This document shows positions 11,362 to 30,057 of a DNA stretch of 64,000 nt, piece by piece. The notes under the pieces were generated by a model, which did no database searches, had not been told where the DNA came from, and was given only the letters and a program-made list of their open reading frames with translations. The stretch's first letter is position 1. Each line of letters begins with the position of its first letter. The translations under genes and the position numbers were made by a program. Source of the stretch: Paracholeplasma vituli (GTDB taxonomy: Bacteria; Bacillota_I; Bacilli_A; Acholeplasmatales; UBA5453); the NCBI RefSeq assembly GCF_025446935.1, contig NZ_JAOEGN010000010.1, positions 1 to 64,000 of the forward strand. The letters run 5' to 3'.

Positions 11362-11371
11362 GAGGAAACAT

Positions 11372-12814
11372 ATGAAAAAAACATTATTAATTATGGTTTT
11401 ACTATTTTCTGTTTCACTGTTAGCAGCTTGTGACAACAAAAAAGAATCAGACGGAAAAGTTAAAATTACTTATGCAAACTGGAATTTAGGAGCTGAAGAC
11501 TCAGAAACGCCAAACATGGAACGCTTAATGATTGAAGCGTTTGAAGAAGCTAATCCAGATATCGATGTGGTAATTTTGGAAAGACCAAAAGTGCCTGGGA
11601 CAACTAATGACGTGTCTTGGAGCGAATTCTTAGTGGCAAGAGCATCTACTCAAAGTTTACCTGATGTCTTTATGGCGGATGATATCCCTTATTACGTTGT
11701 CAATAACTGGGCCTATAACATTACTGAGATTGCAAACGCAGACCCTGAATTTCTAAATGTCTCTGCAGACATTCGTGGCTCTGCTACCTATAATGGTAAG
11801 GTTATGGCATTACCGAATGCGGTATTCTATGCGGGTTATGTAGTCAATGAAACACTTTATGATCAACGTGGTCAAGATTGGCCTACAACTGCTACCACAT
11901 TTGAAGATTTCTTGGCGATGACTAAAGCTGCTGCTAACCACGCATCCACTAACAATAGTGGCTATGTTGGATTAGAAGGCATTGAGCATATCCTCCATTG
12001 GTACCCAGCACAACTCAACGATACTTATGGTTGGTTCACGATGAACCAAAATGGATTTAACCTGGATTCCCAAGAATTCAGTACAACGATGCAAGTCTAC
12101 AGAAACCTTCAAACAGATACCTCATTCGTATTAGAAGCGTTACAATATGAGGCTGCAAAAGAAGGTTCTGAAATTGATATCGAAGCCATCTTCCAAGGTG
12201 GTAGTGCTGGTGCAGCTTTCAATAATGGCGCTATTTTGGCTAAATGGTTCTATTCTTGGGACTTTGGTTGGATGCAAGCCAATATCAATAATGGCACCTA
12301 TACTTGGGACTTAGATTTCATTGGAACACCAGTTGTGAATGGTAAAAAACGCGTACCAAGCGTCGCCGATTTTTTCACCATCGCATCCAACACAAAACAC
12401 CCAGAAGAAGCTTACAAACTAGCGAAATGGATGGGCTTTGGAAAAGAAGGATATTCGAAACGTCTCGAACTTTCTAAAACCGTTGAAGGCATTTCTCAAG
12501 TCAACTTCCCGCCACTACAAAATGATGCTGAACTCTTGGATTCATATTTTGAACTCTACCCAGCATTCACTGGACTTCGTACAATTGTAGAAGCCGGTAG
12601 TGTCATTATTGAACCCCCTAAATTCTTACCTGGTTATATCCAAGCACGTTATCAAGGTACATACGATGCCGAAAATAAGATGGGTGACATTATCAATAAG
12701 CTACGCTTTGGCGAAGTGCTTTATGCAGACGTCAGAACCAGTTTAAATAACCGTGCGAACGCGATTTACAACGAAGCGAAAGCCGCATTTGAACAAGCGA
12801 TTCAACAACGCTAA
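11372..12814 (+). CDS. ABC transporter extracellular sugar-binding lipoprotein
   Basis: This 480-residue family 1 solute-binding protein begins with a lipoprotein signal peptide (MKKTLLIMVLLFSVS, lipobox LAAC with Cys20), so it is anchored to the outer face of the membrane. The mature part shows the family pattern: ITYANWNLG, then a long domain with VMALPNAVFYAGYVVNE and VPSVADFFTIASNTKHPEEAYKLAKW, the usual oligosaccharide-binding C-lobe region. The start at 11372 has GGAGGAAA directly upstream; an in-frame extension back to 11279 would overlap lacI and lack a signal peptide. It probably delivers oligosaccharide to one of the two permease pairs downstream. Confidence 0.92.
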   Translation: MKKTLLIMVLLFSVSLLAACDNKKESDGKVKITYANWNLGAEDSETPNMERLMIEAFEEANPDIDVVILERPKVPGTTNDVSWSEFLVARASTQSLPDVFMADDIPYYVVNNWAYNITEIANADPEFLNVSADIRGSATYNGKVMALPNAVFYAGYVVNETLYDQRGQDWPTTATTFEDFLAMTKAAANHASTNNSGYVGLEGIEHILHWYPAQLNDTYGWFTMNQNGFNLDSQEFSTTMQVYRNLQTDTSFVLEALQYEAAKEGSEIDIEAIFQGGSAGAAFNNGAILAKWFYSWDFGWMQANINNGTYTWDLDFIGTPVVNGKKRVPSVADFFTIASNTKHPEEAYKLAKWMGFGKEGYSKRLELSKTVEGISQVNFPPLQNDAELLDSYFELYPAFTGLRTIVEAGSVIIEPPKFLPGYIQARYQGTYDAENKMGDIINKLRFGEVLYADVRTSLNNRANAIYNEAKAAFEQAIQQR

Positions 12815-12881: not shown

Positions 12882-15806
12882 ATGAAATTAAACATAAAGA
12901 TGCGTAAAGCGATGACCCTCACACTAGCAGGTCTAGTTTTAATATTTGGGGTAAATCTTTTAATCCATGTATTTAATCGAGAGACTCCAAACCCGACATT
13001 CATCGAATATGAAACATCCGCACAATCTGGATCCTATGCGGCTTTTTTGAAGTCGCATGCACAAACCTATGCCAATGATGAAAACCACACAATTCCTGCA
13101 CCCTCTTTCGTATTAGAAGCTGGTGAAACAATTTCTGTAGGTGGTTTTTATGATTGGGTAAATCCAACTCAAGTTCAAATTGAGTTGAATGGGCTAAACA
13201 CAGGTTTATATCAAGTTTTCTTAACCTATCAAGCAAAAAGTGATAATTACTTACCAATTGTCCTAGCTTTAACAGTAGATGGAACCTCACCTTACACAGA
13301 AGCGAGTCAAGCTTCCCTCGATACCTATTGGATTGAGGCAGACGATACGGTTCGTCAAGACCGCTACGGTAATGATGTCGCTGTGATGAAAGCGACTTAT
13401 GATCAAACCGTTAGAAAACCTTTAAAAGACCCGAACCGTCAATACGCAGAAGGCCTTTTGGTTTATTTAACGCCAACATCGAACACACTAGAATTGAATA
13501 AGGTTTCAGGTGATTTGAAGCTCTATAGCATTGAACTCGTAAGTTTAGATACACCAGAGTCCTACGAGACTTACAAACAAGGTGCGACGCTTTCTTCAAT
13601 CGAAACCAAACGTATTGAAGCTGAAGAAGTTTTTTTGATGAATCATTCCAGTATTACTAGAGGCATCTCTAAAGATATTGGTGTATTACCCTTTTCTATT
13701 TCAAAATTAAAACTCAATGTACTTGGAACTGAAAACTATCAAGAACCAGGCGACGCGGTTACTTGGATTGTGGATGTAGAAAGTCCTGGATATTATCAAT
13801 TAAGCTTTAAAGTGAAACAAAACCGTCAAAAAACGACTTCATACAGAACTTTATATATTAATGGTGAACTACCATTTGAAGAAGCGAAACATTTACCATT
13901 TACCTTTTCAAGATCTTGGGAAAATGTGACCTTAAAAGACTCAGAAGGTAATCCGTATTTATTTTACTTGAGCCCTGGGGATGAAATCACTTTGATGGTG
14001 GATAGTACACTTTTCATTGAAGTCGCGAGAAAAATGCGTCAAATTTCGGATGAAATGACGCAATTTGGACTCGAAGTCACGAAATTAACACGCAATAATG
14101 TCGATAAGAATATTGACTGGGATATGGAAGCCTATTTTCCAGATGTAAAAGTTAAACTGGAAAACTGGCGTGATGGGTTAACAGAGGTCATCACGGTATT
14201 AGATACTCTTTATGGATTTAAGGGAGATTCAAAAACAGTTAGTGACCTAAAAGCAGGCCGAAGTAAAATTAATACACTACTAAATGATGTGGATGAAATT
14301 CCAAGAAGATCGACATTGCTTTCAACAGGGTCATCTTCCGCAGTTACCTTAATTTCAGGACAAATTGACGTTGTCTTACAACAGCCTCTTGTATTAGATG
14401 CGTTTTTTGTTCATGGAAAAACCAGTTTACCTAGACCAAATGCTGGTTTCTTTGAATCCCTGTCGATTGGCATTCAGCGCTTTTTCGCTTCATTCATTAA
14501 TCCATCCTACTCTGAAGGGGTAGAAGACGATGAAATCGAAGTTTGGGTGAACCGTTCAAGACAATATGTGGATTTAATCCAACGTATCACAGATGGTGTA
14601 TTTACGGAACAAACGGGTATTAAAGTTAAAGTATCGATCATGAATGATGATGGAAAACTCTTGCTCGCGAACTCCGCGAACAAGCAACCCGATGTCGCAT
14701 TAGGGGTTTCTGCGTGGATTCCAAACGATTATGGTATGCGCGGAATGCTCGTCGATTTATCCACGATGCCAGGCTTTGAGGATACCCTTAAAGTATATAA
14801 CCCGGAACAAGTCGTTCCGATGATTTATGATAATCAATTATTTGGCTTACCTGAAACTGAAAACTTTTATGTTTTGGTATATCGTAAGGATATTTTAGAC
14901 CAACTTGAATTAAACGTACCCAATACTTGGGAAGATGTCTTAGACATGTTACCAGTATTAGAACGTTATGGTATGAGTTTTTATGTGCCTTTATCAAATA
15001 ATAGTGCATTAAAATCGTTTGATACCACCGCACCATTCATATTCCAATACGGCGGGAAACTATACGCCGATGATGGCTTAACAGCGGCGATTGATAATGA
15101 GAATACCATTCAAGCTATGACCTTTATGGCTGACCTTTACCGCGAATATAGCCTTTCTTATCAAGTCCCAAGTTTCTTTAATAGCTTCCGTTATGGCAAG
15201 ATTCCTGTCGGGATTGCGGACTTTGGTATGTATTTACAATTACTCAACGCAGCCTCAGAGATCAAAGGCCTTTGGGATATTGCTTTAGTACCTGGTGTGG
15301 ACCGTGATGGTCGTATCCATCGGGACATGCCAGGTGCTCAACAAGCGAGCATTCTATTTAAAAAGAGTGAAAAACAAGACGATGCTTGGACATTCATGCA
15401 GTGGTGGCACTCCACTGAAACCCAAGTATTATTCTCAGATACCTTAATCAATACATTAGGTACCCGCTATTTGTGGAATACGGCGAATATAGAAGCTTTC
15501 GAACAACTTAACTGGAATAAAGCACATCAATCGATCATATTAGAACAATGGACCCATTTAAGAGAAGTACCCAAGATTCCAGGGTCTTATATGGTTGAAC
15601 GTGAGTTATCGAATACACTTAACAGTGTCGTGTTCTACGATGCGAACTTAAGAAGTACGTTAACAGACAGTATTTTAAAAATGAATAAAGAAATTAATCG
15701 TAAAATGCTCGAATTTGGTTATGTCGACACTAAAGGTGTACCAATCAAACCATTTGTCATTCCAACTCGTGACATCGTTTTAAGGTGGGTGAATGACCAT
15801 GAATAA
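12882..15806 (+). CDS. Large membrane-anchored fusion: carbohydrate-binding-like modules plus ABC solute-binding domain
   Basis: The 974-residue protein starts with one membrane segment (about residues 11-28) and should lie outside the cell. Residues 40-220 and 243-385 look like two beta-sandwich modules of the CBM6/CBM35 type (for example [20 protein letters not shown]). A helical linker follows (about 390-480). The C-terminal 420 residues resemble a family 1 solute-binding protein: [32 protein letters not shown] and [20 protein letters not shown]. No lipobox is present, so a transmembrane helix replaces the lipid anchor. It overlaps the next permease gene. It may combine polymer capture with delivery to the transporter. 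The module names are inference from pattern. Confidence 0.72.
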
Positions 15807-16725
15807 AATCAAACGTTTTTTTGTGATTGAAAAACGAAAATTTAAACAAGACGATAAAGCAGCGTACTTGTTTGCATTACCGTATACGTTGTTATTCTTA
15901 GTATTTATTGTCGTTCCAATTATTCTCGCGATTCTATTATCCTTTACGACTTATGATATGGTGAGTTCGCCAAGGCCGATTGGACTCAATAACTACATTT
16001 ACCTTCTAACCTCTGATGCCGAGTTTATGAAGTACATTTTATCCAATACCATTCGTTTCTCCATACTGGTTGGGCCAGGTGGGTACGTATTATCGTTCGT
16101 ACTCGCGTGGTGTTTGGCACAACTCCCACACCGACTCAGAACGGTATTAGCGGTCATTCTGTATACCCCTTCATTAACTGCTGGGGTGACCATGAGTGTC
16201 ATTTGGAAAGTATTTTTCGCAGGGGATTCGAGTGGGTATTTGAATTATATTCTTTTAGAACTTGGACTCATCGTAGAACCGATTGCGTTTTTACAATCCC
16301 CACAGTATCTTTTCATCATCATGGTCGGGGTTACTCTTTGGGGGTCGATGGGGGTTGGGTTCTTAGCGATGCTTGCTGGGATTCTAAATGTCGATAAAGA
16401 ACTCTATGAAGCGGCCTATTTGGATGGTGTTAGAAACCGATTCCAAGAAGTCATTCACATTACGATTCCATCGATGAAACCACAAATGTTATTCGGTGCC
16501 GTGATGGCGATTGTTACGGCTTTCTCAACGGGTGCGATTGGGGTACAACTTTCTGGTAGTAACCCAACACCAAACTATGCGGGGTCCTTGATCGTAAATC
16601 ACATCGAAGACTTTGGGTTTACCCGTTACGATATGGGCTACGCAGCTGCATTATCCGTAGCACTGTTGGGATTAATCTATTTCTTTAGCAAGATTGCCTA
16701 TAAATTATTTGGAGAAAGGGACTAG
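15793..16725 (+). CDS. Sugar ABC transporter permease (MalF/UgpA type), first pair
   Basis: This 310-residue membrane protein has six predicted helices and the conserved cytoplasmic EAA loop that contacts the ATPase ([20 protein letters not shown], about residues 206-225). It is the first of two adjacent permeases that would form a heterodimeric channel with the gene at 16735. The start overlaps the preceding gene by 14 bases; an ATG two codons later is also possible. No ATPase gene lies in the locus. Confidence 0.9.
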
Positions 16726-16734: not shown

Positions 16735-17607
16735 ATGTCAAAATTTCAAGCCGTTAGAACCAATCCAGATAAATTTCATCTATCTCAACTCCCATATTTA
16801 CTCTTTGTTTTGCCATTTGCAGCGATTATGATGCTGCCTTTAGCATACATTTTTAACCACGCATTTAAGCCATTTGATGAACTCATCGAATATCCACCCA
16901 GATTTTTAGTTCAAAGACCGACTTGGGATAACTTTATTGAGCTATTTGCAGCCTCAACCACAACTGGGATTCCGGTCTCGCGTTATCTCTTTAACAGTAT
17001 CGTAATAACCTTATTAGTTGTGTTTTTTTCGATTTTCTTAAGTAGTATTACTGGATATGCCCTTTCGAAAATGAAATTTCATGTCAGTAAACTCTTATCA
17101 GAAATCAACACAATCGCGATGATGTTTGTCGGTACTGCTGTCATCATCCCGCGTTATATCATCACAGAGAGTTTTGGCTTAGTCGATACATTTTGGGTCC
17201 ATATTATCCCATCACTAGCTGTGCCGATTGGACTATTTCTAATCAAACAGTTTATCGATCAAATTCCAAATGAACTCATTGAAGCTGCGAAGATTGATGG
17301 TGCAAATCACTTCACAATTTACTTAAAAATCATTTTACCACTCATTAAACCCGCACTCGCAACCATCGCGATTTTATCCTTCCAAGCAGTTTGGAATAAC
17401 GCTGACGTGTCCGCGACTTACATCAATTCCGACAGTTTAAGAACCTTTGCGTATTACATGTCGACACTCTCATCATCCTCTAACCAAGTAGTTGGGATTG
17501 GCATGAGTGCAGCAGCGAGCTTAATCATGTTCTTACCAAACTTAATCATCTTCATTTTCCTACAAAGTAAAGTCATGAATACGATGGCTCACTCTGGGAT
17601 TAAGTAG
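16735..17607 (+). CDS. Sugar ABC transporter permease (MalG/UgpE type), first pair
   Basis: This 290-residue permease has six predicted helices and the EAA motif (LIEAAKIDGANHFTIYLKII). It begins 10 bases after the stop of its MalF-type partner and is followed 9 bases later by the NHL/TPR gene. The pair presumably moves sugars captured by the lipoprotein at 11372 or by the fusion protein at 12882. It lacks any fused ATPase or regulatory domain. Confidence 0.9.
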   Translation: MSKFQAVRTNPDKFHLSQLPYLLFVLPFAAIMMLPLAYIFNHAFKPFDELIEYPPRFLVQRPTWDNFIELFAASTTTGIPVSRYLFNSIVITLLVVFFSIFLSSITGYALSKMKFHVSKLLSEINTIAMMFVGTAVIIPRYIITESFGLVDTFWVHIIPSLAVPIGLFLIKQFIDQIPNELIEAAKIDGANHFTIYLKIILPLIKPALATIAILSFQAVWNNADVSATYINSDSLRTFAYYMSTLSSSSNQVVGIGMSAAASLIMFLPNLIIFIFLQSKVMNTMAHSGIK

Positions 17608-17616: not shown

Positions 17617-19632
17617 ATGAAAAAACTATTCATGTTGTCCATCCTTGTATTAAGTCTTGGATTAATCGTTAAAAGTCCAATTCAAAGTAGTCAATCGTCT
17701 TCAGGGATTCCTTACAATACGTATACATTAGGGGAATACAATCGTTTGGTTCAAACTCAGACAGCCTATATTCCAGTGGGTGCTTTTAGCAACCTCAGTT
17801 TGAACAATCCTCAAGATATATATCAAAAAGATGATATTTTATATATCGCAGACACCGGAAACAAACGCGTCTTAAAAGTTGCTTTAAATGGTTCAGTTTT
17901 GGATACGTATTCCTCAACAGAATGGATCACACCGACAGGGATCTTTATTGAAGAACAGAAGATGTATATAGCTGATAAAGATGCGAGAACAATCTTTGTC
18001 TTTGATTTAACAACCAAACAAATTATAAGCCGAATCACAAAACCAACCTCTCCGATTTTTGGTCAAAATAACGCCTTTTTACCAATCAAAGTCGTTGTTG
18101 GTTCGAATGACGCTATTTATGTGGTTGGTGAAGGTTCCACCTCAGGAATCATTCAACTGAACTACGCCGGTGAATTTGTAGGGTACTTAGGGATTAACAG
18201 TGTCTCGATTTCATTTAGAAAGTTTTTATACAATCTATTTGTGAAACAGTCCGATTTAGCCTCATCACTACCACCGTCACCCACAAATGTGGCTTTAGGT
18301 CAAAAAGGGTCGATTTTAACCACCAATATTAACTTTGGACAATCCTTCAAACGTTTAAATATTTCAGGTGTAAATACCCTTTTAGGCGATACTAGATACC
18401 CAACTGAACCATTAAGTGATATATGGATGGATCAAGACAACTACATATATCTCGTATCAAGTACAGGCGAAATCTATGAATACGACGCGAATGGGCGTTT
18501 ATTGTTCCAATTTAATACCAAAGACCGTTCGATGAAACAAGGGTTAGGTTTGACCAATACCCCTGCAGGTATCACTACTGACTCAAACGGAAATCTTTAT
18601 ATTTTGGACCGTATTTACAATAATATTCAAATTTATCAAAGAACCGTATTCGTAGATTTGGTACACGAAGCAGTAACTTTATATAATGACGGTAGATACT
18701 TAGAATCGAAACCATTATGGGAAGAAATCTTAAGACAAAATACCGGATTCGCTCTCGCACACTCCGCTCTTGGTGAAGCGTTAGCCAAAGAAGGTAACTT
18801 TGATGACGCTTTGGATTCATTTTATGAAGCTAAAGACCTCAGTGGGTATTCAAATGCGTACTGGGAAATCCGAAATGTTGCGATTCAAAATAATCTTGTC
18901 ACTTGGATCATTATTCTTATCAGCATCATTGTAGTATTTAAGGTTGGTAAGAAAACGGTTGTATACTTGCCATTTTATGAATCAGCCAAATCGCGTGTTC
19001 ATAAAATTAGTGAAGTTGAACTGGTAAGTCAAATTAGACTTTCTAAGCAAATCTTCAAAAAACCAGCAGATTTGGTTTACTATGTGAAACGAGATAACCG
19101 AGGTAGCTATTTATCTGGTTTACTGGTATTCGTAGCGTTCTTAGTGGTTTACTTACTCGATACGTATCTATCTGGGTTCTTATTCAGAAACCACTCTGTT
19201 GGTAATGTTTTACAACAAGTAGGAATCGTTTCTATTGTATTTTTCTTATTTGTGACTGTGAACTATTTAGTATCCACATTCTCAGATGGTGAAGGTCGAT
19301 TCAAGGATGTCTTTGTGATGTCAGCTTATGCATTAGTCCCATTCATCCTATTCATCCCGATTATGACTGTTGTGTCGCATTTCCTGACTTATAATGAAGC
19401 CTTTATTTATACGTTCTATCATCAAATCGTCCTTTATTACACTGTATTCCTCTTTGTGTATACTTTAAAAGAAGTCCATAACTATACCCTATTTGAGACC
19501 ATCAAATCCATTTTACTGATTCTATTTGGTATGCTCATTATGGTTCTAATGGGGCTTCTCATTTACGCTTTCATTGGTCAAGTATGGGACTTCATTGTAT
19601 CTATTATTAAGGAGGTGATCTACCGTGCGTAA
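17617..19632 (+). CDS. NHL-repeat / TPR / YIP1-like membrane protein of unknown function
   Basis: The 671-residue protein has three clear parts. A signal sequence (about residues 1-22) leads to an extracellular NHL-type beta-propeller (about 45-345; repeats such as DILYIADTGNKRVLKV and GITTDSNGNLYILDRIY). Next is a short TPR-like helical stretch (about 350-425, EAVTLYNDGRYLESKPLWEEI). One membrane helix follows, then a cytoplasmic segment and a C-terminal cluster of about five helices resembling YIP1-family proteins. It sits between permeases and a DUF5696-like protein in the same operon, suggesting a structural or sensing part of the uptake machinery. No catalytic residues are recognisable. 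Confidence 0.7.
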   Translation: MKKLFMLSILVLSLGLIVKSPIQSSQSSSGIPYNTYTLGEYNRLVQTQTAYIPVGAFSNLSLNNPQDIYQKDDILYIADTGNKRVLKVALNGSVLDTYSSTEWITPTGIFIEEQKMYIADKDARTIFVFDLTTKQIISRITKPTSPIFGQNNAFLPIKVVVGSNDAIYVVGEGSTSGIIQLNYAGEFVGYLGINSVSISFRKFLYNLFVKQSDLASSLPPSPTNVALGQKGSILTTNINFGQSFKRLNISGVNTLLGDTRYPTEPLSDIWMDQDNYIYLVSSTGEIYEYDANGRLLFQFNTKDRSMKQGLGLTNTPAGITTDSNGNLYILDRIYNNIQIYQRTVFVDLVHEAVTLYNDGRYLESKPLWEEILRQNTGFALAHSALGEALAKEGNFDDALDSFYEAKDLSGYSNAYWEIRNVAIQNNLVTWIIILISIIVVFKVGKKTVVYLPFYESAKSRVHKISEVELVSQIRLSKQIFKKPADLVYYVKRDNRGSYLSGLLVFVAFLVVYLLDTYLSGFLFRNHSVGNVLQQVGIVSIVFFLFVTVNYLVSTFSDGEGRFKDVFVMSAYALVPFILFIPIMTVVSHFLTYNEAFIYTFYHQIVLYYTVFLFVYTLKEVHNYTLFETIKSILLILFGMLIMVLMGLLIYAFIGQVWDFIVSIIKEVIYRA

Positions 19633-21895
19633 AACTTTATGGCTTAAAGTAACTTCGGTTATCTTATCGATACTCGTGATATTTTCAATCAATCACGTGA
19701 TTCAAAGCGCATTCGTAGAAACCTCTGATCAAGCTTTACCAAGTTTCTCTGAACTTACCGATTATGTGTCATCGAATCGTTTTACTCAAACCGATGACTT
19801 AACTTTAGCAACCAGTCCATACACTTTAAATCCTGAACAAACCATCATCGATACGGAGCTCGGGATGGTTTACCTCGATCAAAGTTCACTGGCTTTTATG
19901 GTACAAAATGAAAATGGCTATGTGTTTTCATCGACAATCGACTACGAAACCTCCGGGTTGTCACCGAATTGGCAACGTCGTGTCAGAAGTGGTATTCATA
20001 TTTACTCTTACAATACGAACAACCCAAATAACGCGAGAACCGAAGAGTTTATATTATCTGAAAATACCTCTAAATCGGTTCAAATAATTGATAATGGCTT
20101 TGAGTCGACGATTACATTTGGTATTTCACGTATTCGACTTACCGTTAGAGTTCAATTTTTAACAGAAGGCATCTTTATTGAAATACCAAATGATTCGATT
20201 GTAGAATCCGGAAACCACAAGATCGGGTCCATTTATGTCTATCCTTATTTGGGGGCTGTCAAAGGTGACACGACACCTGGATACATGTTCATTCCTGATG
20301 GTGTAGGTGCACTCATTCGCTATCAGGTCGCTTCAACCACCAGACAATATACGAAGGAGTTTTACAACCCAAACTTTTCATTCAATATGGAAACCGATTT
20401 AAATCGAATGACAGCAGAGGGGACAGCACTTTACGCACCTGTATTTGGAATGGTCCACGGGATTGATCAAAATGCCATATTCGCAACCATTGAATCTGGC
20501 GCAGAAAATGGTATCTTAACCATTAATTTTGCAGGTACATTAACCCCTTATAACGCGATATTTACGGAATTCATATACCGCCGTATTTACAATCAACCAG
20601 TTGATAAAGCGAATCGTTTTATCCAAATTATGCAAGAAAAACGGAATCCTGTTGACATTAAAATTCGTTATCAACTGTTAACCAATGAGAACGCCAATTA
20701 TGTTGGTATGGCAAAAGCGTATCGCAATCAACTGATTGAACAAAATCAATTGATTAAGCAAACAGCTACTCGCGATAATAGTCCACTCAAATTAGAATCG
20801 ATTGGGTTAGTTAAAAATGAAGGGTTATTATTTGCAGAGACTAACGTCATGACGACATTAAAGTCACTCACGTCAATTGTAAAATCCTTAAATAGTGAAA
20901 TCGATGAAATCATAGTTGCTTATCAAGGCTTCACAAAATCAGGTGCGACCTGGGATGGCCCTGTTTATGAAGGTTTATCCAATCGTATTGGTGGAGCTAA
21001 AGATATCGAACGATTAAAAGCAGAAGTCGGCGAACTCTATTTTGTTACAGAATCATTAAAAGCGAGCTCACGTTCTGGTGATTATCAAAGTTTTAGAGAT
21101 TTAGCTAAAAAAATCAACGAACAAACGTATCGATTCCAAGAATATGACCACAGTCGTTACCTTTTAAAACACAGTAAAGTCACTTCAAGCTTCAATCAAA
21201 CGTTAAAGAGTGTCAGCAGATACGCTGTTGATGGCTTAGCCATGAGTTCGATTGGTAACACATTATATGCTGATTATGGTACAGGTGTATCGCTATCTGA
21301 ATCGATGCGTATTTTCCAAGACCTCTTAAAGGGCGTTGAAAAGAAGATAGCCTTATACGACGCATATGCCTATATGTGGGGCACCATGAATGCCTACTTT
21401 GATGTTCCGATGTATTCGAGTCAGTACTTGTCATTCTCGGATACTGTTCCATTTATACCAATCGTTTTAAACGGGTATATGGATTTATATGGGGCAAACG
21501 CGAACTTTTATGACTACGCGAGAGACCAGCTCTTAAGAAGCATTGATTACGGCATTAATATCTCATTCATGGTTACAGAAGCGTCTTCAAAGAAACTTCA
21601 AGACACCGGATTAAGTGGCATTTATACCTCGCGTTTCACCGATTTAAAACCAGCCATTTTGACCTATTATATGTTTGTTAATGACGCTTTAAAACATGTT
21701 CAAAATCAAGCGATTGTGGATCGAACGGTCCTACAAACAGGTGTCGTTAAAGTGGTCTATGAAAATCAAACCGAAATTTATATAAACTACCTTAATCAAT
21801 CGGTTGTAGTAGAAGGTCGAACCATAGAACAGAAGCATTTCGTCGTAATCCAAAATGGTATCGAAGTTTCAACTGTAAAAGGCGGTGGTATCTAA
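19625..21895 (+). CDS. DUF5696-like membrane-anchored extracellular protein, possible glycoside hydrolase
   Basis: The 756-residue protein starts with a single N-terminal membrane helix (about residues 7-26) and should be extracellular. Residues 40-330 look like beta-sandwich. The middle 390-650 has alternating strand and helix with many acidic and aromatic residues (EIDEIIVAYQGFTKSGATWDGPVY, VDGLAMSSIGNTLYADYG), compatible with a TIM barrel. The end is beta-rich again. That order recalls GH101/GH129-type enzymes, but no catalytic pair can be named. The GTG start follows AAGGAGGTGA and overlaps the previous gene by 8 bases; the stop overlaps the next start by one base. I recognise it as DUF5696-like from overall pattern only. 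Confidence 0.65.
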   Translation: MRKTLWLKVTSVILSILVIFSINHVIQSAFVETSDQALPSFSELTDYVSSNRFTQTDDLTLATSPYTLNPEQTIIDTELGMVYLDQSSLAFMVQNENGYVFSSTIDYETSGLSPNWQRRVRSGIHIYSYNTNNPNNARTEEFILSENTSKSVQIIDNGFESTITFGISRIRLTVRVQFLTEGIFIEIPNDSIVESGNHKIGSIYVYPYLGAVKGDTTPGYMFIPDGVGALIRYQVASTTRQYTKEFYNPNFSFNMETDLNRMTAEGTALYAPVFGMVHGIDQNAIFATIESGAENGILTINFAGTLTPYNAIFTEFIYRRIYNQPVDKANRFIQIMQEKRNPVDIKIRYQLLTNENANYVGMAKAYRNQLIEQNQLIKQTATRDNSPLKLESIGLVKNEGLLFAETNVMTTLKSLTSIVKSLNSEIDEIIVAYQGFTKSGATWDGPVYEGLSNRIGGAKDIERLKAEVGELYFVTESLKASSRSGDYQSFRDLAKKINEQTYRFQEYDHSRYLLKHSKVTSSFNQTLKSVSRYAVDGLAMSSIGNTLYADYGTGVSLSESMRIFQDLLKGVEKKIALYDAYAYMWGTMNAYFDVPMYSSQYLSFSDTVPFIPIVLNGYMDLYGANANFYDYARDQLLRSIDYGINISFMVTEASSKKLQDTGLSGIYTSRFTDLKPAILTYYMFVNDALKHVQNQAIVDRTVLQTGVVKVVYENQTEIYINYLNQSVVVEGRTIEQKHFVVIQNGIEVSTVKGGGI

Positions 21896-22770
21896 TGGGA
21901 AAACCACTATCTAGAGCAACCCGTGAAAACCTATTTGGATACACGTTCATCGGTATATGGATTCTTGGATTCTTCATTTTTATGCTATATCCACTTTTAA
22001 CCTCCATCATTTACAGTTTAAGTGATGTTAAATTAACCGCAGACGGAATTGTGTCTAAGTTTGTAGGATTCAAGAATTACATCGATCTATTCAAAATTGA
22101 AAAAGGGTTTGAATTTATCGAAGCACTCACCGCGTACTTACGACAAATGGTGTTACAAATTCCAGTTATCATCGTATTCTCGATCTTAATCGCACTATTG
22201 TTAAATCAAAAGATTAAAAGCCGTGGCATTTTCAGATCAATCTTCTTCCTACCCGTCATCATTTCCTCTGGGCCAGTCATTAACGAACTCATAGAACACG
22301 GTGCTGGTGGGACCAATATCTTTGAATCGTACGGGTTTATCACGATTATTCAAAACAGTTTGTCTACCGATTTGGCAAAACCGATTGTCGATTTGTTTTC
22401 ACAAATCATCATTATATTTTGGTTTAGTGGGGTACAAATCTTGATTTTCTTAGCAGGGTTACAAAAGATTGATCAACAAATCTATGAAGCTGCACAAATT
22501 GATGGTGCAGGTCCATGGCAAGCCTTTTGGAAGATTACGATGCCTTCATTGAGTAGTTTAATCTTAGTTAACAGTATTTATACCATCGTGTTATTATCCA
22601 CATTCTCAGAAAATAAAGTCATTCTCTCGATTAAATCCAATTTATTCAACTCTGTTACAGGGTTTGGGATGGCTTCAGCGATGGCGTGGATGTACGCACT
22701 CATTGTATTCTTAGCCATTGGCTTAGTTGGGCTACTCTTTAGAAGTAGACAACCAAGAAGGAGGTATTGA
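21895..22770 (+). CDS. Sugar ABC transporter permease (MalF/UgpA type), second pair
   Basis: This 291-residue membrane protein has six predicted helices and the EAA loop YEAAQIDGAGPWQAFWKITM (about residues 195-214). It is the first of a second permease pair in the locus; its partner begins 3 bases after its stop. Being separated from the first pair by the NHL and DUF5696 genes, it is likely a distinct channel or an alternative permease with different size preference. No dedicated solute-binding gene lies directly in front of it, so it may use the 974-residue fusion protein or share the lipoprotein. Confidence 0.9.
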   Translation: MGKPLSRATRENLFGYTFIGIWILGFFIFMLYPLLTSIIYSLSDVKLTADGIVSKFVGFKNYIDLFKIEKGFEFIEALTAYLRQMVLQIPVIIVFSILIALLLNQKIKSRGIFRSIFFLPVIISSGPVINELIEHGAGGTNIFESYGFITIIQNSLSTDLAKPIVDLFSQIIIIFWFSGVQILIFLAGLQKIDQQIYEAAQIDGAGPWQAFWKITMPSLSSLILVNSIYTIVLLSTFSENKVILSIKSNLFNSVTGFGMASAMAWMYALIVFLAIGLVGLLFRSRQPRRRY

Positions 22771-22772
22771 GT

Positions 22773-23690
22773 ATGCAAAATCGAAAAGCAACCATTCAAA
22801 AGTTCTTTTTAGGCAGACACTTTACCGATGGCATTATTTTTAAAGTAATTATATATGTCTTATTAATCTCAATTGGATTTGTCTATGTCTACCCAATGCT
22901 ATACATGGTATCAAACAGTTTGAAGAGTCAAAGTGACATCATTAACCCAATAATTAACTGGGTACCTTCGGCATTTTACATGGGAAACTATCAAAGTGCA
23001 TTTAAGGTGCTAAATTACTTTGAAACACTTTATAAGAGTATTTGGATTACATTATTACCAGCCATTATTCAGACCTTGGTTACATCAGTGATTGGGTATG
23101 GGTTCGCTACCTTTAACTTTAAGTTTAAAAAAGTGTGGTTCATCTTGGTACTTTTAACCTTTGTCATTCCCCCACAAGTCTACATGATTCCACGTTTCGT
23201 TATGTTTTTTAGACTTTATTTATACCGTACTCCATTCGCAATCATCCTACCAGCAGTATTTGGACAAGGGTTAAATTCAGCCATCTTCATTTTGATTTTC
23301 TATCAATTCTTCAAAATGATTCCAAAAGCCTTAAACGAAGCGGCAGAAATCGACGGTGCGACCCCATTTTATATATTCTTTAGAATGGCTGTACCACTCT
23401 CTGTGCCAGCTTACATCACCAGTTTCTTATTTGGATTGGTCTGGTATTGGAATGAAACCTACATATCGAGTTTATTCTTAGACTCGAACGACGCCAACAT
23501 GCAGCTCAAACTCGCGAACTTCGTATCCGAGTATTCCCAAATGGGTGGGTCTGAGCAATTGGTTATGTTAAACGAAGGGGTTCGCTTAGCTGCGACTCTA
23601 CTCATCATCTTGCCGATGATTATCGTCTACTTCACGATGCAACGCTGGTTCGTTGAAGGGGTCGAAAAGACCGGCATCACAGGAGAATAA
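22773..23690 (+). CDS. Sugar ABC transporter permease (MalG/UgpE type), second pair
   Basis: This is a MalG-type permease of about 305 residues with six predicted helices and the EAA motif LNEAAEIDGATPFYIFFRMA. The start is set at ATG 22773, which lies 7 bases after AAGGAGGT; the in-frame TTG at 22767 is too close to that site. The next gene, the glucanase lipoprotein, begins 3 bases after the stop, so they are coupled. As with the first pair, the energising ATPase must come from elsewhere in the genome. Confidence 0.9.
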   Translation: MQNRKATIQKFFLGRHFTDGIIFKVIIYVLLISIGFVYVYPMLYMVSNSLKSQSDIINPIINWVPSAFYMGNYQSAFKVLNYFETLYKSIWITLLPAIIQTLVTSVIGYGFATFNFKFKKVWFILVLLTFVIPPQVYMIPRFVMFFRLYLYRTPFAIILPAVFGQGLNSAIFILIFYQFFKMIPKALNEAAEIDGATPFYIFFRMAVPLSVPAYITSFLFGLVWYWNETYISSLFLDSNDANMQLKLANFVSEYSQMGGSEQLVMLNEGVRLAATLLIILPMIIVYFTMQRWFVEGVEKTGITGE

Positions 23691-23692: not shown

Positions 23693-25030
23693 ATGAAAAA
23701 ACTTACGACTTTCCTCGTTTTAGCCCTGAGTATCTTCGTCTTAGTGGCGTGTGGTTCTAAAGACCCTTACCCAGTGAACAATAAGTCTTACCGTGTAAAC
23801 GTAAGACAAAATGTCGATGAGGTCGTCTTAGAAGAATTAGAACTCGCTTTTGATTTCTTTTGGGAAACCCAAAATACCAATGAATCTCAAGCAGGGTATG
23901 GTTTAATTCCAGACCGTTACCATACCAATACAAATACGGTTGGTACAGTCGCTTCCATCGCCTCTGTTGGATTTGGCTTAACAGCGATTCCAGTTGGGGT
24001 TGAAAATGGGTTTATTACACGTGAAGAAGGTGAAGAACGTGCCTTTAAGACGTTAGAGTCGATGTTGAAACTCGACCGTCGTCATGGATTCTTTTTCCAC
24101 TTTATGAGTATGACAACCGGTGAACGTGTTTGGGAAAGTGAAGTCTCTATCATCGATACTGCACTCTTCATCAATGGTGCGCTTACTGCTGGACAATTTT
24201 TTGGTGGAAGAACTCAAAAGTTAGCCGAACAGCTCTATGAAGAAATTGAATGGAACTGGTATTATGACGCCGCTCAAAGCCGTTTCTATATGGGTTACTG
24301 GCCAGAACGTGGGTTTGCAGGACATTGGGATTCCTATGCGGAACAGCTTATGTTATATGTCCTAGCCGCGGGTAGTCCAACTTATCCAGTCGGTAAGAGT
24401 GCTTATAACCGAATGAAACTTTCTTCAACACTCCACAGTTCAACTGAAAACTATGGTGCGTTCTATTCAACCCATACAGGTAGTATCTTCACATACCAAT
24501 TTTCACACGCATGGATTGATTTTGAATCTTATAATGACGCAGCTGGATTCAATTGGTTCACGAATTCGGTACATGCCACAGAAGCAGCCATAGCATATGC
24601 GAAAACACTCACTTCAATATACCCAGGTATCAATGAAAACTCTTGGGGGATGTCTGCCGCAGATGGTCCTAATGGCTACAAAGGTAATTATGGATCGGGT
24701 CCATCGGCAGGGAATGCCCATTTCAACGACGGGACTGTCCCAGCTTATGGAGCGATTGGATCTATTGTCTTTAAACCAGAAGCAGCCATTAACGCCATGA
24801 AAAACTATCGAACGTTCCCACAATTCCATTCGAAATATGGATTTAAAGACGCTTATAACCTTTCCGTTGGTGTAAATGGATGGTTTGGTAACGACATTAT
24901 TGGTATCGATAAGGGGATTTCACTCGTGATGTTAGAAAACTATATGTCTGGCATGATTTGGGAGATTTTCATGGAAATTGACTATGTTCAAGAAGGTCTT
25001 AAGAATCTCGAATTTCAAAAAGTAGAATAA
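23693..25030 (+). CDS. Glucoamylase-like (GH144-type) lipoprotein, probable extracellular endo-beta-1,2-glucanase
   Basis: This 445-residue protein has a lipoprotein signal (lipobox LVAC, Cys20) and a glycoamylase-like (alpha/alpha)6-barrel domain. That domain includes GH144 endo-beta-1,2-glucanases and the related domain of cyclic beta-1,2-glucan synthases. Recognisable blocks are ELAFDFFWETQN, GVENGFITREEGEERAFKTL, VSIIDTALFINGAL with Asp155, and HWDSYAEQLMLYVLA with Glu217, an acidic pair in the substrate cleft region. As a surface lipoprotein it would cut polymer before import. The assignment to beta-1,2-glucan rests on family membership and on the GH94 and GH3 neighbours. It ends the first transcription unit; a hairpin and a new promoter follow. 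Confidence 0.8.
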   Translation: MKKLTTFLVLALSIFVLVACGSKDPYPVNNKSYRVNVRQNVDEVVLEELELAFDFFWETQNTNESQAGYGLIPDRYHTNTNTVGTVASIASVGFGLTAIPVGVENGFITREEGEERAFKTLESMLKLDRRHGFFFHFMSMTTGERVWESEVSIIDTALFINGALTAGQFFGGRTQKLAEQLYEEIEWNWYYDAAQSRFYMGYWPERGFAGHWDSYAEQLMLYVLAAGSPTYPVGKSAYNRMKLSSTLHSSTENYGAFYSTHTGSIFTYQFSHAWIDFESYNDAAGFNWFTNSVHATEAAIAYAKTLTSIYPGINENSWGMSAADGPNGYKGNYGSGPSAGNAHFNDGTVPAYGAIGSIVFKPEAAINAMKNYRTFPQFHSKYGFKDAYNLSVGVNGWFGNDIIGIDKGISLVMLENYMSGMIWEIFMEIDYVQEGLKNLEFQKVE

Positions 25031-25131: not shown

Positions 25132-26358
25132 ATGAATACAAAAAAAACCATCGAACATATTCAAAAAACAGCCTTTGATTTTTTTATGAATGAAACCAAT
25201 TTTAACGAAACAGAAACCGGATTTGGGATGACACTTGACCATACTGAAAAAAAGGGTGTCGCAACCATCGCAGCGGTTGGTTTTACCCTATCCGCCTATG
25301 TGGTAGGAGATGTTTATGGCTATATCTCTAAAGAAGAGGCCTTAGATAAAGTGAAGAAAACCTTACTGACCCTGCGTGACCATGTGAGTCATTATGAAGG
25401 TCTTTTCGCGCATTTTATTGATTTTCACACTGGTAAACGCTTAGGACATTGTGAATATTCCACCATCGATACCGCACTCGCTTTAAATGGGGTCATTACA
25501 GTGGATAGTTATTTTAATGACGACACGATTCACGCTTTAGCGAATGACATCATCAAGCGCGTGAACTTTGATATGTTGATTCATACCCATGAAGGTAAAA
25601 AACGCCTCTACATGGCTTATAACCCGGATAAGAAAGGCGATTACGTCACAGATAAACCGGGATTCATCCACCACTGGGGGATGTTTGCTGAACAACTCAT
25701 GATGTATGTCATGATTGCAGGCCTTAAAGAAGACAAAAACGAATCGAAGGCTCTATACAATGGCTTCGATCGTATCTATAAATCGTATCAAAAACACCAT
25801 TATATCATTACACCAGGGAATACCTTATTTGTGTATCAGTTTCCACTGGCTTGGCTCAATTTAGAAGACATTGAGGATGCGGATGGCATAAACTGGTTCA
25901 TCAATGCGAAAAAAGCGACTTACGGTCACCGTGCTTTTTGTCTAAGACACCAAAAGACATTTAAAACATTCAACCATTACAGCTTTGGCTTAACCGCGGG
26001 GTATACACCGACTGGCTATTATGTTGCGAATGCATTACCAAATACCTTAGGTAAATACTATACCAACGGCACGATTTCACCGTCTGCGATGGTGGGCAGT
26101 TTACCTTTCGCTCCTGAAATCGTCTTACCAGCCATTAGGAAAATGGTAGAAGATCCTAAACTATGGGGCAAATACGGTTTAGTTGGTGCTTATAATTATG
26201 AAAATGGTACTTGGATTTCTAATCGTGACTATGCTTTAGATAAAGGCCTTGAACTATTAATGTGTAATGCCTATTTATCCAAAGATGTCATGCGTGCTTA
26301 TATGAAACACCCAATCATTCAAAAGGGTATGGAGGTCTTACAGTGGCGAAAGATTTAA
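25132..26358 (+). CDS. Cytosolic GH144-like glucanase paralogue
   Basis: This 408-residue protein is related to the lipoprotein at 23693 but has no signal peptide, so it should act inside the cell. The equivalent motifs are YSTIDTALALNGVI with Asp113 and HHWGMFAEQLMMYVMIAGL with Glu187; the C-terminal part (AYNYENGTWISNRDYALDKG) also matches. It is the first gene after the internal promoter and is followed by GH13, GH3 and GH94 genes with overlapping or short junctions. It would trim imported oligosaccharides. A strictly exo- or endo- mode cannot be told from sequence. Confidence 0.8.
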   Translation: MNTKKTIEHIQKTAFDFFMNETNFNETETGFGMTLDHTEKKGVATIAAVGFTLSAYVVGDVYGYISKEEALDKVKKTLLTLRDHVSHYEGLFAHFIDFHTGKRLGHCEYSTIDTALALNGVITVDSYFNDDTIHALANDIIKRVNFDMLIHTHEGKKRLYMAYNPDKKGDYVTDKPGFIHHWGMFAEQLMMYVMIAGLKEDKNESKALYNGFDRIYKSYQKHHYIITPGNTLFVYQFPLAWLNLEDIEDADGINWFINAKKATYGHRAFCLRHQKTFKTFNHYSFGLTAGYTPTGYYVANALPNTLGKYYTNGTISPSAMVGSLPFAPEIVLPAIRKMVEDPKLWGKYGLVGAYNYENGTWISNRDYALDKGLELLMCNAYLSKDVMRAYMKHPIIQKGMEVLQWRKI

Positions 26359-27938
26359 ATCAAGTGGTCTATCAAATCTACCCCTTAAGCTTTAAAGATT
26401 CGAATGGGGATGGGATTGGTGATTTAAACGGCATTATTACAGAACTCGATTATTTAAAGGATTTAGGTGTCGATGTCATTTGGTTATCCCCAGTGTATCA
26501 ATCTCCAATGGATGATAACGGGTACGATATCTCCGATTACTATGAAGTAAACCCAATGTTTGGTTCGAAAACCGATTTAATGAATCTATTGAATAAAGCC
26601 CATGAAAAAGGCTTAAAAGTCATTATGGATTTGGTTTTGAATCATACTTCTGATGAACATGTTTGGTTTAAAGAAGCACTCAAAGGGCCTAACAATCCAT
26701 ATTATGATTACTATATATGGTCGGATACACCAAGTGACATCACCTCAGTATTCAGTGGGTCTGCTTGGCAATATGTCGAACACTTAAAACAGTATTACTT
26801 CCACTTATTCTCGGTTAAACAACCCGATTTGAATTGGCAAAACAAAACCTTAAGAACTGAAATCTATAGGATGATCAACTATTGGTTAGATTTAGGTTTT
26901 GACGGCTTTAGACTCGATGTCATCGATTTAATCGGAAAAGATGTCTATTCAAAAAGACTCGCAGATGGCCCTTATCTCGATGCTTACTTAGAAGAACTTT
27001 ACGAAACCTGTTTTAAAGGTAGAGAGGTCTTCACGGTGGGTGAAATGCCAGGTATCTCATTAAAACGCGCCAATGAGATCACTTCGACCCACCCCGCATT
27101 AGATATGGTTTTCCAATTTGACCACATCGCCTTAGATGAACAACCCGGTCAAGGCAAATGGATGTTAAAAACCTTAGACTTACACGCTTTAAAACAAACC
27201 TTAAATAACACACAACAAATCTTTAAAGATAAGGGTTGGCCAAGTCTGTTCTTATCGAACCATGATCAACCCAGAGCGGTATCGCGTTACGGGAATCCAT
27301 CAGAAAAGTATCGAAACGATTCGGCCAAAATGTTATTCACGCTGTTATTCGGCATGAAAGGGACACCTTACATTTACCAAGGTGAAGAGTTCGGAATGAC
27401 TGGTATCAAAATGGCAATTGAAGACTATAAAGATATCGAAACGAAAAACATCTATCAAGAACTTAAACAAAAAGGATTTAAAGAAGCAGATATTATGAAT
27501 TCCATTTACGCGAAGAGTCGCGATAATTCAAGAACCCCAATGCAATGGAATGAAACCGTGAACGCAGGATTTTCCACTGGGTCCCCATGGCTAAAAGTGA
27601 ATCCTAACTATGTACTCATCAACAGGGATACCGATCAAAAAGACCCGAATGGGATTATCACTTATGTCAAAGACTTATTGAAATTGAGAAAATCTAATCC
27701 ACTCTTTAACACAGGAGCGTTTAATCTCTTGTTCGAGGATCATCCGAACCTATTCATCTACGAACGTGCAAGTGAAACCGAACGCATCGTTGTGGTATGT
27801 AACTGGACCGATGTTACAATCGAAAATCCACTTTCGATAGAGAAGATGAGCGTTTTACTCTCAAATAGCACAGATCACATAACCTTAAAACCGTATTATA
27901 CGGGTATTTATTATGAAAAGAGGACCATTCATGCTTAA
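26343..27938 (+). CDS. GH13 alpha-glucosidase (oligo-1,6-glucosidase type)
   Basis: This 531-residue cytosolic GH13 enzyme contains the four conserved regions: MDLVLNHTSDEH, GFRLDVID with nucleophile Asp192, VGEMPG with acid/base Glu234, and LSNHDQPR with His307-Asp308. The opening QVVYQIYPLSFKDSNGDGIGDLNGI and the length fit GH13 subfamily 31, which hydrolyses alpha-1,6-, alpha-1,4- or alpha-1,2-linked gluco-oligosaccharides. The GTG start lies 6 bases after GGAGGT and inside the previous gene. An alpha-glucosidase among beta-glucan enzymes is unexpected; the imported material may carry alpha-linked side groups, or the locus may handle more than one sugar. Confidence 0.9.
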   Translation: MAKDLNQVVYQIYPLSFKDSNGDGIGDLNGIITELDYLKDLGVDVIWLSPVYQSPMDDNGYDISDYYEVNPMFGSKTDLMNLLNKAHEKGLKVIMDLVLNHTSDEHVWFKEALKGPNNPYYDYYIWSDTPSDITSVFSGSAWQYVEHLKQYYFHLFSVKQPDLNWQNKTLRTEIYRMINYWLDLGFDGFRLDVIDLIGKDVYSKRLADGPYLDAYLEELYETCFKGREVFTVGEMPGISLKRANEITSTHPALDMVFQFDHIALDEQPGQGKWMLKTLDLHALKQTLNNTQQIFKDKGWPSLFLSNHDQPRAVSRYGNPSEKYRNDSAKMLFTLLFGMKGTPYIYQGEEFGMTGIKMAIEDYKDIETKNIYQELKQKGFKEADIMNSIYAKSRDNSRTPMQWNETVNAGFSTGSPWLKVNPNYVLINRDTDQKDPNGIITYVKDLLKLRKSNPLFNTGAFNLLFEDHPNLFIYERASETERIVVVCNWTDVTIENPLSIEKMSVLLSNSTDHITLKPYYTGIYYEKRTIHA

Positions 27939-30057
27939 TATCAAAACCCTATTAAATAGTCTTTCCATTGAAGAAAAAATTGGACAGTTGATGCAACTGG
28001 CACCCTTTTTCTTCATTGGAGATTTAAAAAAAGAAGTATATGGACCAATTCAAGCCTTAGGCTTAAAAGAGGAAGAGGTGTTTTTGTCGGGTTCTGTATT
28101 GGGTATTGGTAATGCCTCTGAAATGAGACGGGTTCAAGAAGCGTATTTAGCGAAAAGTAGACATAAAATCCCACTCATTTTTATGGCAGACATCATTCAT
28201 GGGTATAAGACCATATTCCCTGTACCCCTCGCGATGTCAACCAGTTTTAACCCAGATTTGATAAAAAAGGCCGCGCGTATTTCGGCGTTAGAAGCTCAAA
28301 CAGCAGGCATTCATGTTACATTCTCACCGATGGCTGACTTATCGAGAGACCCTCGTTGGGGTAGAGTAGTTGAAGGTTTTGGTGAAGACCCATATTTGAA
28401 CCAAGTGTATGCGAAAGCAATGGTTGAAGGCTATCAGCACGATGGTATTGAAAAGGTTGGGAATCTCGCAAGCTGTGTGAAGCATTTCGCGGCTTACGGT
28501 GCGAGTGAAGCGGGTCGCGACTACAATACCGTGGATATCTCAAGACTAAACTTACACCAATATTATTTATCCGGATATAAAGCCGCGATCGATGCCGGTG
28601 CACGCTTAGTCATGACGTCATTCAACATTATAGAAGGCATTCCAGCGACTCAAAATAAATATCTCTTACGAGAACTATTAAAAGTACAGTGGCAATTCGA
28701 TGGGGTCGTCATCTCCGATTACGACTCACTTCGTCAAACGATTGAACACGGGACTTCTGAAGATGATTATGACGCAGCGAAAAAAGCTATTTTAGCCGGT
28801 CTGGATATTGAAATGGCGACATCCTCTTATGTTCTAAACTTGAAGAAACTGATCGAAAATAATGAAGTACCGATGTCACTCTTAGATGACGCTGTGTATC
28901 GAGTGCTTAAACTTAAAAATGATCTCGGACTCTTCGATAACCCATTTAAAGGTGCAGATGAACAAAAAGAACGTGAATTTGTGCTTTCTAAAGAGAATAA
29001 AAAGGTTGCTTTAGAAGTTGCGAAAGAATCGATGGTATTACTTAAAAACGATTCGGTATTACCACTGAAATATACACAGAAAATCGCTTTATTAGGCGAA
29101 TACTCGAAGAATCCACACACGATTGGACCTTGGAGTTGGCATGGTCGAAGTGAGGATTGTACACCCCTTTATCAAGCCATATCAAAATACACTAAACCAC
29201 TTTTAGTCAGCGATTCGAACGATTTATCTACATTAAGTCCTTCTGATTATCAAGCCTTAGTAGAATCGGACGTAGTTGTCGTCGCTATTGGTGAACACGC
29301 GATTGAATCGGGTGAAGCACATTCGAAAACGAATCTCACACTAAAACCAAACGATTTAAGATTGATTGAGGACTTATCTAAACTCGGTAAGAAAATCGTC
29401 TTAGTCTTATATCACGGTAGACCAGTCGTTCTAACGGATGTCGAACCGAAAGTACACGCGATACTTGATACATTTTTCTTAGGTACGATGGCACAAGAAG
29501 CGATCACAGAAACCTTATTTGGATTTAATAATCCGTCCGGGAAACTCACGATGAGTTATCCACGTTCTGTTGGTCAAATTCCAATCTATTATAACTATTT
29601 GAATACCGGTAGACCTTTTAAAAACGATGGGAACCCATTTACATCCTTTTATTTAGATGAAAAAAATACACCCCTCTATCCATTTGGTTATGGTCTGAGT
29701 TATTCTTCATTTAAGTTATCGAATTATCGTCTATCCAAACAAATCATTCGTGAATCCGAACCTATTCTTGTTTCAATTGATGTTGAAAATGCCTCTCCAA
29801 TAGATGGGTATGAAACAGTTCAACTCTATATAAGAGATTATGCGGCTGAAGTAGCGAGACCGGTTCAAGAGCTGAAACAGTTTAAAAAAGTATTCGTAAA
29901 AGCGAAATCCAAACAAACCGTTACATTCGAATTAACTGTCTCTGATTTGGTTTATGTTCATAGTGATTTATCAACCTATGCAGATCATGGACGTTTCAGT
30001 ATTCAAGTCGGTAACACGTCCAATCAGGTGCACACAACCGATATCACATTCCTATAG
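27931..30057 (+). CDS. GH3 beta-glucosidase
   Basis: This 708-residue GH3 enzyme has a (beta/alpha)8 domain, an alpha/beta sandwich and a C-terminal fibronectin III-like domain. Motifs seen are FSPMADLSRDPRWGRVVEGFGEDP, VKHFAAYGASEAGRDYN, VVISDYDSL with nucleophile Asp263, and PFGYGLSYSSF before the FnIII part. It lacks a signal peptide and should release glucose from oligosaccharides in the cytoplasm. The ATG at 27931 has GAGGA upstream and overlaps the end of the GH13 gene by 8 bases; an ATG at 27913 is less well placed. GH3 beta-glucosidases accompany sophoro-oligosaccharide phosphorylases in other Firmicutes. Confidence 0.93.
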   Translation: MLNIKTLLNSLSIEEKIGQLMQLAPFFFIGDLKKEVYGPIQALGLKEEEVFLSGSVLGIGNASEMRRVQEAYLAKSRHKIPLIFMADIIHGYKTIFPVPLAMSTSFNPDLIKKAARISALEAQTAGIHVTFSPMADLSRDPRWGRVVEGFGEDPYLNQVYAKAMVEGYQHDGIEKVGNLASCVKHFAAYGASEAGRDYNTVDISRLNLHQYYLSGYKAAIDAGARLVMTSFNIIEGIPATQNKYLLRELLKVQWQFDGVVISDYDSLRQTIEHGTSEDDYDAAKKAILAGLDIEMATSSYVLNLKKLIENNEVPMSLLDDAVYRVLKLKNDLGLFDNPFKGADEQKEREFVLSKENKKVALEVAKESMVLLKNDSVLPLKYTQKIALLGEYSKNPHTIGPWSWHGRSEDCTPLYQAISKYTKPLLVSDSNDLSTLSPSDYQALVESDVVVVAIGEHAIESGEAHSKTNLTLKPNDLRLIEDLSKLGKKIVLVLYHGRPVVLTDVEPKVHAILDTFFLGTMAQEAITETLFGFNNPSGKLTMSYPRSVGQIPIYYNYLNTGRPFKNDGNPFTSFYLDEKNTPLYPFGYGLSYSSFKLSNYRLSKQIIRESEPILVSIDVENASPIDGYETVQLYIRDYAAEVARPVQELKQFKKVFVKAKSKQTVTFELTVSDLVYVHSDLSTYADHGRFSIQVGNTSNQVHTTDITFL

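Follow-up and report, generated by a model that had tools for sequence, protein, structure and literature searches.

In NagBb, the glycoside hydrolase family 129 (GH129) alpha-N-acetylgalactosaminidase of Bifidobacterium bifidum, the accessible part of the published description gives Asp435 as the nucleophile (PMC5698469). Among sugar uptake systems, the accessible part of a second report (PMC6484121) places the ATPase gene of the Listeria innocua beta-1,2-glucooligosaccharide importer apart from its cluster, describes adjacent GH161 and GH94 clusters in Acholeplasma laidlawii that include ATP-binding cassette (ABC) permeases, GH16 and GH3, the GH161 cluster having no solute-binding protein (SBP), and notes that such loci mostly have no ATPase. 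Here we analyzed a 64,000-nucleotide stretch of the Paracholeplasma vituli genome (the window), in which a gene for a protein of Pfam family DUF5696 lies among ABC transporter genes. The preliminary description of this DNA had proposed that the protein is a surface glycoside hydrolase for the local glycan. Our analysis leads us, with moderate confidence, to the view that DUF5696, derived from GH129 or from an ancestor shared with it, acts outside the cytoplasm as one subunit of an ABC-type importer of glycans and is not itself catalytic.

Predicted fold and kinship of DUF5696

The window protein matches PF18952 (DUF5696) almost end to end (profile positions 2-612 of 612), with an E-value of 6.1e-145 and 484.6 bits against a curated cut-off of 25.6. 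An AlphaFold2 model built from 60 sequences reached a mean predicted local distance difference test score (pLDDT) of 91.1 and a predicted template modeling score of 0.90. After an N-terminal hydrophobic helix (residues 2-29), which may stay as a membrane anchor or be cleaved off as a signal peptide, the modeled chain forms a beta-rich region (72-353), a barrel in which strands and helices alternate (388-690) and, at the C-terminus, a further beta region (697-749). These correspond to a super-sandwich, a (beta/alpha)8 barrel and a C-terminal sandwich in the same order as in GH129, so that the sandwich, barrel and beta-rich succession of GH101/GH129 type guessed in the preliminary description is what the model gives.

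A Foldseek search of the PDB ranked GH129-type enzymes first (5opq, E 7.3e-31), GH101 next and GH36 after. Pairwise superposition with VIA-align gave Z 28.7 for 5opq_D (root-mean-square deviation 3.7, 582 residues aligned) and Z 28.5 for 5wzn_A (4.1, 565 aligned), both within residues 72-756 of the window protein, followed by GH101 (Z 19.2, 6.5 over 542 residues) and GH36 (Z 18.1 over 452 residues), the catalytic residues of the last two lying outside the comparison. The structure prediction and fold search that the preliminary description had suggested thus found a barrel, with GH129 as the best match and GH101 and GH36 below it.

Relatives were collected with an alignment as query, which retrieved 512 of them; the single protein found no related loci in viral and genome contigs. 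The best 80 of the 512 make up the named loci, and 20 regions of other subfamilies were picked by hand from the DUF5696 matches in 295 genomes. Residue conservation was read from 60 close sequences (alignment A3) and 26 diverse ones (A1), the window protein being counted in both. Rows were dropped by eye and not by computed identity. A3 thereby lost 21 of the 80 named loci, 19 as apparent near copies and two because their DUF5696 gene is broken. A1 lost 7 of its 32 loci, namely the window and six that looked like near copies or fragments, and A4 lost 3 of 87 neighboring open reading frames (ORFs). Searched against PDB sequences, the single protein gave chance-level matches only and a family profile was required for informative ones; the five top matches of the A3 profile were all GH129-type (E 0.0012-0.015).

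The 295 genomes, a sample of one phylum, also supplied true GH129 relatives for comparison. DUF5696 was matched in 82 of them at E 0.001, 38 weakly and 44 above the family cut-off, the latter comprising 39 full-length proteins, one partial match (G042) and four GH129-type proteins. These four (L133-L136, in genomes G107, G127, G146 and G232) are 603-657 residues long and match part of the DUF5696 profile. L133 is a close relative of NagBb by PDB search (E 4.4e-147), the other three share 42-62% identity with L133, and all four retain the nucleophile Asp and the following Glu, yet the Pfam GH129 model (PF11308) scores them below its own cut-off. Judged from these sequences, the border between the two Pfam families is a model boundary problem, in which the DUF5696 cut-off lets in NagBb-type GH129 proteins with intact catalytic residues. 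Since four of the 295 genomes hold GH129-type proteins, it means little that PF11308 had no match in this set at E 0.001. The DUF5696 profile aligns with the true GH129 relatives in hhalign at 97.4% (E 1.4e-11), and in a FastTree phylogeny a branch with full local support separates the two sets. The results support a relationship of DUF5696 to GH129 and, more distantly, to GH101 and GH36.

Apparent loss of the GH129 catalytic site

The GH129 nucleophile maps to Ser541 of the window protein by hhalign and in two joint MAFFT alignments, and to the adjacent Ser542 by HMMER. Four further positions differ between wild-type NagBb and a quadruple mutant of it. Their equivalents in L133 (H254, H301, D303 and H347) are invariant in the four GH129 proteins, are replaced by E, A, Q and V in the window protein, and are retained in 1, 0, 1 and 2 of the 60 close DUF5696 sequences, respectively. 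For the acid/base Glu, which we take to be E478 in NagBb, the acidic share stays at or below 21 of 60 sequences in every column between 572 and 583. The position of GH129 W305 is aromatic in 57 of 60. D606 was also considered together with an Asp/Glu at position 641 as a carboxylate pair, but rejected because 641 ends a helix that precedes a barrel strand in the secondary structure of the model, which probably places it at the bottom of the barrel. On this residue mapping, DUF5696 appears to have lost both the GH129 nucleophile and the His/Asp residues of the site.

A conserved seven-gene cassette

DUF5696 is the fifth gene in the order SBP2-permA-permB-NHL/Yip1-DUF5696-permC-permD. When profiles of the window core proteins were run over the 100 loci, NHL/Yip1 was upstream and an ABC permease gene downstream of DUF5696 in every one, and the nearest permC start was within 30 nucleotides of DUF5696 in all 100. 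The seven genes were complete and in order in 95 loci; in the other five (L062, L078, L082, L102 and L112) genes were missing only at contig ends. In half of the hand-picked regions (10 of 20), NHL and Yip1 are encoded by two distinct genes. The genomes with a full-length DUF5696 (E <1e-50) and those with NHL/Yip1 (E <=1e-10) are the same 39 of 295, and G042, with its partial DUF5696 match, has no NHL/Yip1 match. A relative of the first solute-binding protein, SBP1, occurs in 75 of the 80 named loci. Pfam scanning found no ATPase among the window cassette proteins that were scanned, and the two MalK-type ATPases of the source genome are both encoded on other contigs.

The reading frames within the cassette are packed tightly. 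DUF5696 starts with GTG at 19625, overlapping the 3' end of the NHL/Yip1 gene (19632) by 8 nucleotides, and its stop codon shares one base with the ATG of permC. Just 5' of this GTG, the last stretch of NHL/Yip1 coding sequence includes an AGGAGG resembling a ribosome-binding site (19610-19615), an arrangement consistent with translational coupling. In the 99 loci where it could be measured from the nearest in-frame DUF5696 start, the overlap with the NHL/Yip1 stop was again 8 nucleotides in 60, and the start nearest that stop was GTG in 75. In two metagenome loci (L042 and L043) DUF5696 is broken into two ORFs, reflecting sequencing errors or decayed genes.

The source genome has three DUF5696 genes. 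Among the best 80 of the 512 relatives, the closest named homologue is from Acholeplasmataceae bacterium UBA6150 (68% identity), and the holders are Acholeplasmataceae, relatives of Bacillus and Paenibacillus, and genomes labelled Chloroflexi, Thermoanaerobacter and Fervidobacterium. The cassette has apparently not been described so far: a full-text search of the open-access literature, which leaves most subscription papers outside, found no paper on DUF5696, none of the matches listed had a title on the cassette, and Yip1 had no match in the main text of PMC6484121.

Catabolic genes beside the cassette

The genes next to the cassette change from one group of loci to another. Relatives of the window PF10091 or SOGP proteins, counted by phmmer at E <=1e-5 to the window proteins (a criterion by which some of those counted may be other family members), are found in the neighborhood of DUF5696 in 69 of the 80 named loci and in 1 of the 20 other regions. 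GH16 neighbors occur in 6 of the 20 other regions and 3 of the 80 named loci, and 4 of the 20 contain NamZ, MurQ-like and BadF-type genes, a putative peptidoglycan-salvage set by their Pfam names. Within the source genome, one of the other DUF5696 copies is beside GH16 and GH3 and one beside DUF4127. This last belongs to a third cassette (L114, 12298-19896) that adjoins DUF4127 and an FAD oxidoreductase, and none of its four scanned neighbors is a glycoside hydrolase.

Labelling the FastTree phylogeny by neighbor type required 16 changes, compared to a mean of 32 after shuffling. DUF5696 sequences group by their neighboring catabolic genes, a pattern that shared descent alone would also give. 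With the same cassette beside beta-1,2-glucan, GH16 or peptidoglycan-salvage genes, the family is not bound to one glycan. These changing neighbors, together with Ser541 at the nucleophile position and the retention of each His/Asp residue in at most 2 of 60 sequences, speak against the proposal that the protein is a hydrolase for the local glycan.

Features of the window

The features of the window locus are collected in Table 1. The preliminary description had placed the protein among glucan enzymes, and two PF10091 proteins, a GH13, a GH3 and an SOGP/GH94-type protein do follow downstream. We take PF10091 to be the GH144-type family. Because the PF10091, GH3 and SOGP proteins follow the cassette, its cargo in the window is probably beta-1,2-glucan. 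The model of SBP2 has an N-terminal helix, beta-rich segments at about 69-221 and 243-373, a helical region and the SBP domain at about 549-957. That domain matches the Listeria beta-1,2-glucooligosaccharide binding protein 5ysb with Z 36.2 and 21% identity, tied for best with the MalE structure 3UOR.

Two further observations concern the genes around the cassette. The GH13 enzyme, a member of an alpha-linkage family, stands inside this beta-1,2-glucan locus and recurs in relatives L033, L034 and L036-L041. Farther downstream, the stretch 38991-61437 carries three P-type metal ATPase genes (38991-41330, 44162-46138 and 58963-61437) and is possibly a heavy-metal island.

Table 1. Genes of the DUF5696 locus in the window, with the evidence for each assignment.
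Feature	Position	Strand	Evidence
LacI-type regulator	10393..11361	+	Pfam LacI / Peripla_BP_3
SBP1, second solute-binding protein	11279..12814	+	SBP_bac_1 E 2e-09
SBP2, large solute-binding protein, 974 aa	12882..15806	+	Pfam SBP_bac_1; AlphaFold2 pLDDT 88.6
ABC permease A (permA)	15793..16725	+	BPD_transp_1 E 3.6e-13
ABC permease B (permB)	16735..17607	+	BPD_transp_1 E 6.9e-15
NHL-repeat / TPR / Yip1 protein, 671 aa	17617..19632	+	Pfam NHL, TPR, Yip1
DUF5696 protein, 756 aa	19625..21895	+	Pfam PF18952 match, AlphaFold2 model, GH129 fold match, residue mapping
ABC permease C (permC)	21895..22770	+	BPD_transp_1 E 3.4e-07
ABC permease D (permD)	22767..23690	+	BPD_transp_1 E 4.2e-17
PF10091 protein, lipoprotein-like N-terminus (LVAC, by eye)	23693..25030	+	PF10091 E 1.4e-59
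PF10091 protein, no signal seen by eye	25132..26358	+	PF10091 E 3.9e-48
GH13 enzyme	26343..27938	+	PF00128 E 1.2e-141
GH3 family protein	27913..30057	+	PF00933/PF01915
1,2-beta-oligoglucan phosphorylase-type protein (SOGP/GH94)	30067..33354	+	SOGP_N E 7.8e-73, SOGP_2nd E 4.7e-69

Discussion

The simplest account of these observations would be that an importer has taken over a glycosidase fold as one of its parts, with no catalytic role. The importer SBP2-permA-permB-NHL/Yip1-DUF5696-permC-permD would be powered by a shared MalK-type ATPase encoded elsewhere. DUF5696, which would be located outside the membrane, may hold the glycan chain, or the assembly, between SBP2 with NHL/Yip1 on one side and the two permease pairs on the other, and cutting would be left to separate enzymes, in the window the GH144-type, GH3 and SOGP proteins. 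We infer that the cassette is an ABC importer with added enzyme-derived parts.

Several observations weigh against this account. Neither the named loci nor the hand-picked regions are random samples, the 39 genomes that share DUF5696 and NHL/Yip1 are related and so are not 39 independent events, and gene order is an association that says nothing of a physical complex. GH13 barrels reach the level of GH101 in VIA-align (1lwh_A, Z 19.6 over 311 residues), making the fold ranking below GH129 uninformative. At column 541, 27 of the 60 close sequences have Asp and 11 have Glu, and 7 of the 26 diverse ones have an acidic residue; with 38 of 60 acidic, some DUF5696 members may keep part of the site. 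The acid/base Glu is not firmly positioned, as hhalign puts Glu459 beside Glu572 and in both joint MAFFT alignments it falls in a gap. Other acids are well conserved in the close sequences: D225 is kept in 60 of 60, the D606 column is Asp or Glu in 60 of 60, position 396 in 58 and position 476 in 56. An unusual active site built on such acids is possible. Finally, of the 40 barrel positions with the highest conservation, 25 lie on the upper barrel face in A3, compared to 141 of 302 positions overall, and 21 do so in A1; with an enrichment this weak, the idea that the face is strikingly conserved was dropped.

The best surviving alternative, which we nevertheless consider unlikely, is hydrolysis: DUF5696 would trim the glycan where it enters the transporter, by means of a catalytic pair unlike that of GH129, candidates for which include D225, D606 and the acidic positions 396 and 476. 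It would suit the GH129 barrel and the several carboxylates kept in 56-60 of 60 close sequences. Of the two catalytic residues of NagBb, the GH129-like DagB of Zobellia has just the counterpart of Asp435, according to the accessible part of PMC5698469, which indicates that the fold tolerates change at the active site. However, the residue that DagB and NagBb have in common is Ser in the window protein and is not conserved across the DUF5696 family, the window protein and L033 both have Val at position 396, and position 476 is acidic in only 7 of 26 diverse sequences. DUF5696 also serves loci for chemically different glycans that have their own hydrolases. The preliminary description had called for a conserved carboxylate pair in the barrel. 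The GH129 nucleophile is not conserved in the family, and since D225 and D606 are well conserved outside the GH129 site, the outcome is not a clean refutation of catalysis.

Slightly less probable again is a purely structural role, in which DUF5696 would act as an assembly factor of the four-permease complex and make no contact with glycan. In favor of such a factor are the unvarying association of DUF5696 with NHL/Yip1 in the loci and genomes compared, the close overlap of the two genes and the weak enrichment of conserved positions on the upper barrel face. Against it are the aromatic residue kept at the W305 position in nearly all close sequences and the grouping of the tree by catabolic neighbors, though shared descent would suffice for the latter. 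That DUF5696 is an ordinary GH129 alpha-glycosidase is very improbable despite the kinship in fold and sequence, because the residue mapping, with its missing nucleophile and His/Asp residues, already contradicts it and the fully supported branch divides the family from its GH129 relatives.

Taking DUF5696 as a non-catalytic importer subunit, a broader and more tentative idea, to which we give somewhat less than even chances, is that the cassette represents a distinct, unnamed glycan import machine of single-membrane bacteria. Its two permease pairs, SBP with added beta domains, NHL-propeller/Yip1 membrane protein and disarmed GH129 would capture large or cyclic glycans and feed them inward, in a role like that of SusCD, and the machine would be reused for beta-1,2-glucan, GH16-type glucans and peptidoglycan fragments. 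The analysis also supplies DUF5696, a family with no assigned function, with a predicted fold, a known relative and a specific proposal for its role. If true, the conversion of a glycosidase into a transporter component would be a plain example of enzyme-to-non-enzyme reuse, and bacteria without an outer membrane would have a dedicated machine for large glycans comparable to SusCD in Bacteroidota. Such a cassette could also account for sugar clusters resembling half a transporter.

Comparison with known systems

NagBb (5WZN) resembles DUF5696 in its three domains, which superpose on DUF5696 residues 72-745, and in a family profile that aligns with that of DUF5696. The two differ in sequence (13% identity), in the change of Asp435 to Ser and in the loss of the four His/Asp site residues from DUF5696. 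They differ as well in genomic setting, DUF5696 being part of a transporter cassette, and in the hydrophobic helix at the N-terminus of DUF5696. DagB is the best fold match (Z 28.7, tied with NagBb) and is among the top PDB matches of the sequence profile, but it is an exo-enzyme of a carrageenan locus. In the accessible part of PMC5698469, DagB retains Asp486, the nucleophile equivalent that DUF5696 is without. The GH101 endo-alpha-N-acetylgalactosaminidases and GH36 alpha-galactosidases match across the sandwich and barrel, yet they are farther than GH129, with Z no better than that of GH13 barrels.

On the transport side, the Listeria innocua importer (5YSB), which we take to be an ordinary importer, is similar in the binding domain of SBP2 and in that the MalK-type ATPases of the source genome likewise lie away from the window cassette. 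The window cassette differs in having two permease pairs, NHL/Yip1 and DUF5696. By analogy, and as far as the accessible part of PMC6484121 describes them, the adjacent GH161 and GH94 clusters of Acholeplasma laidlawii are possibly the two halves of one such seven-gene cassette.

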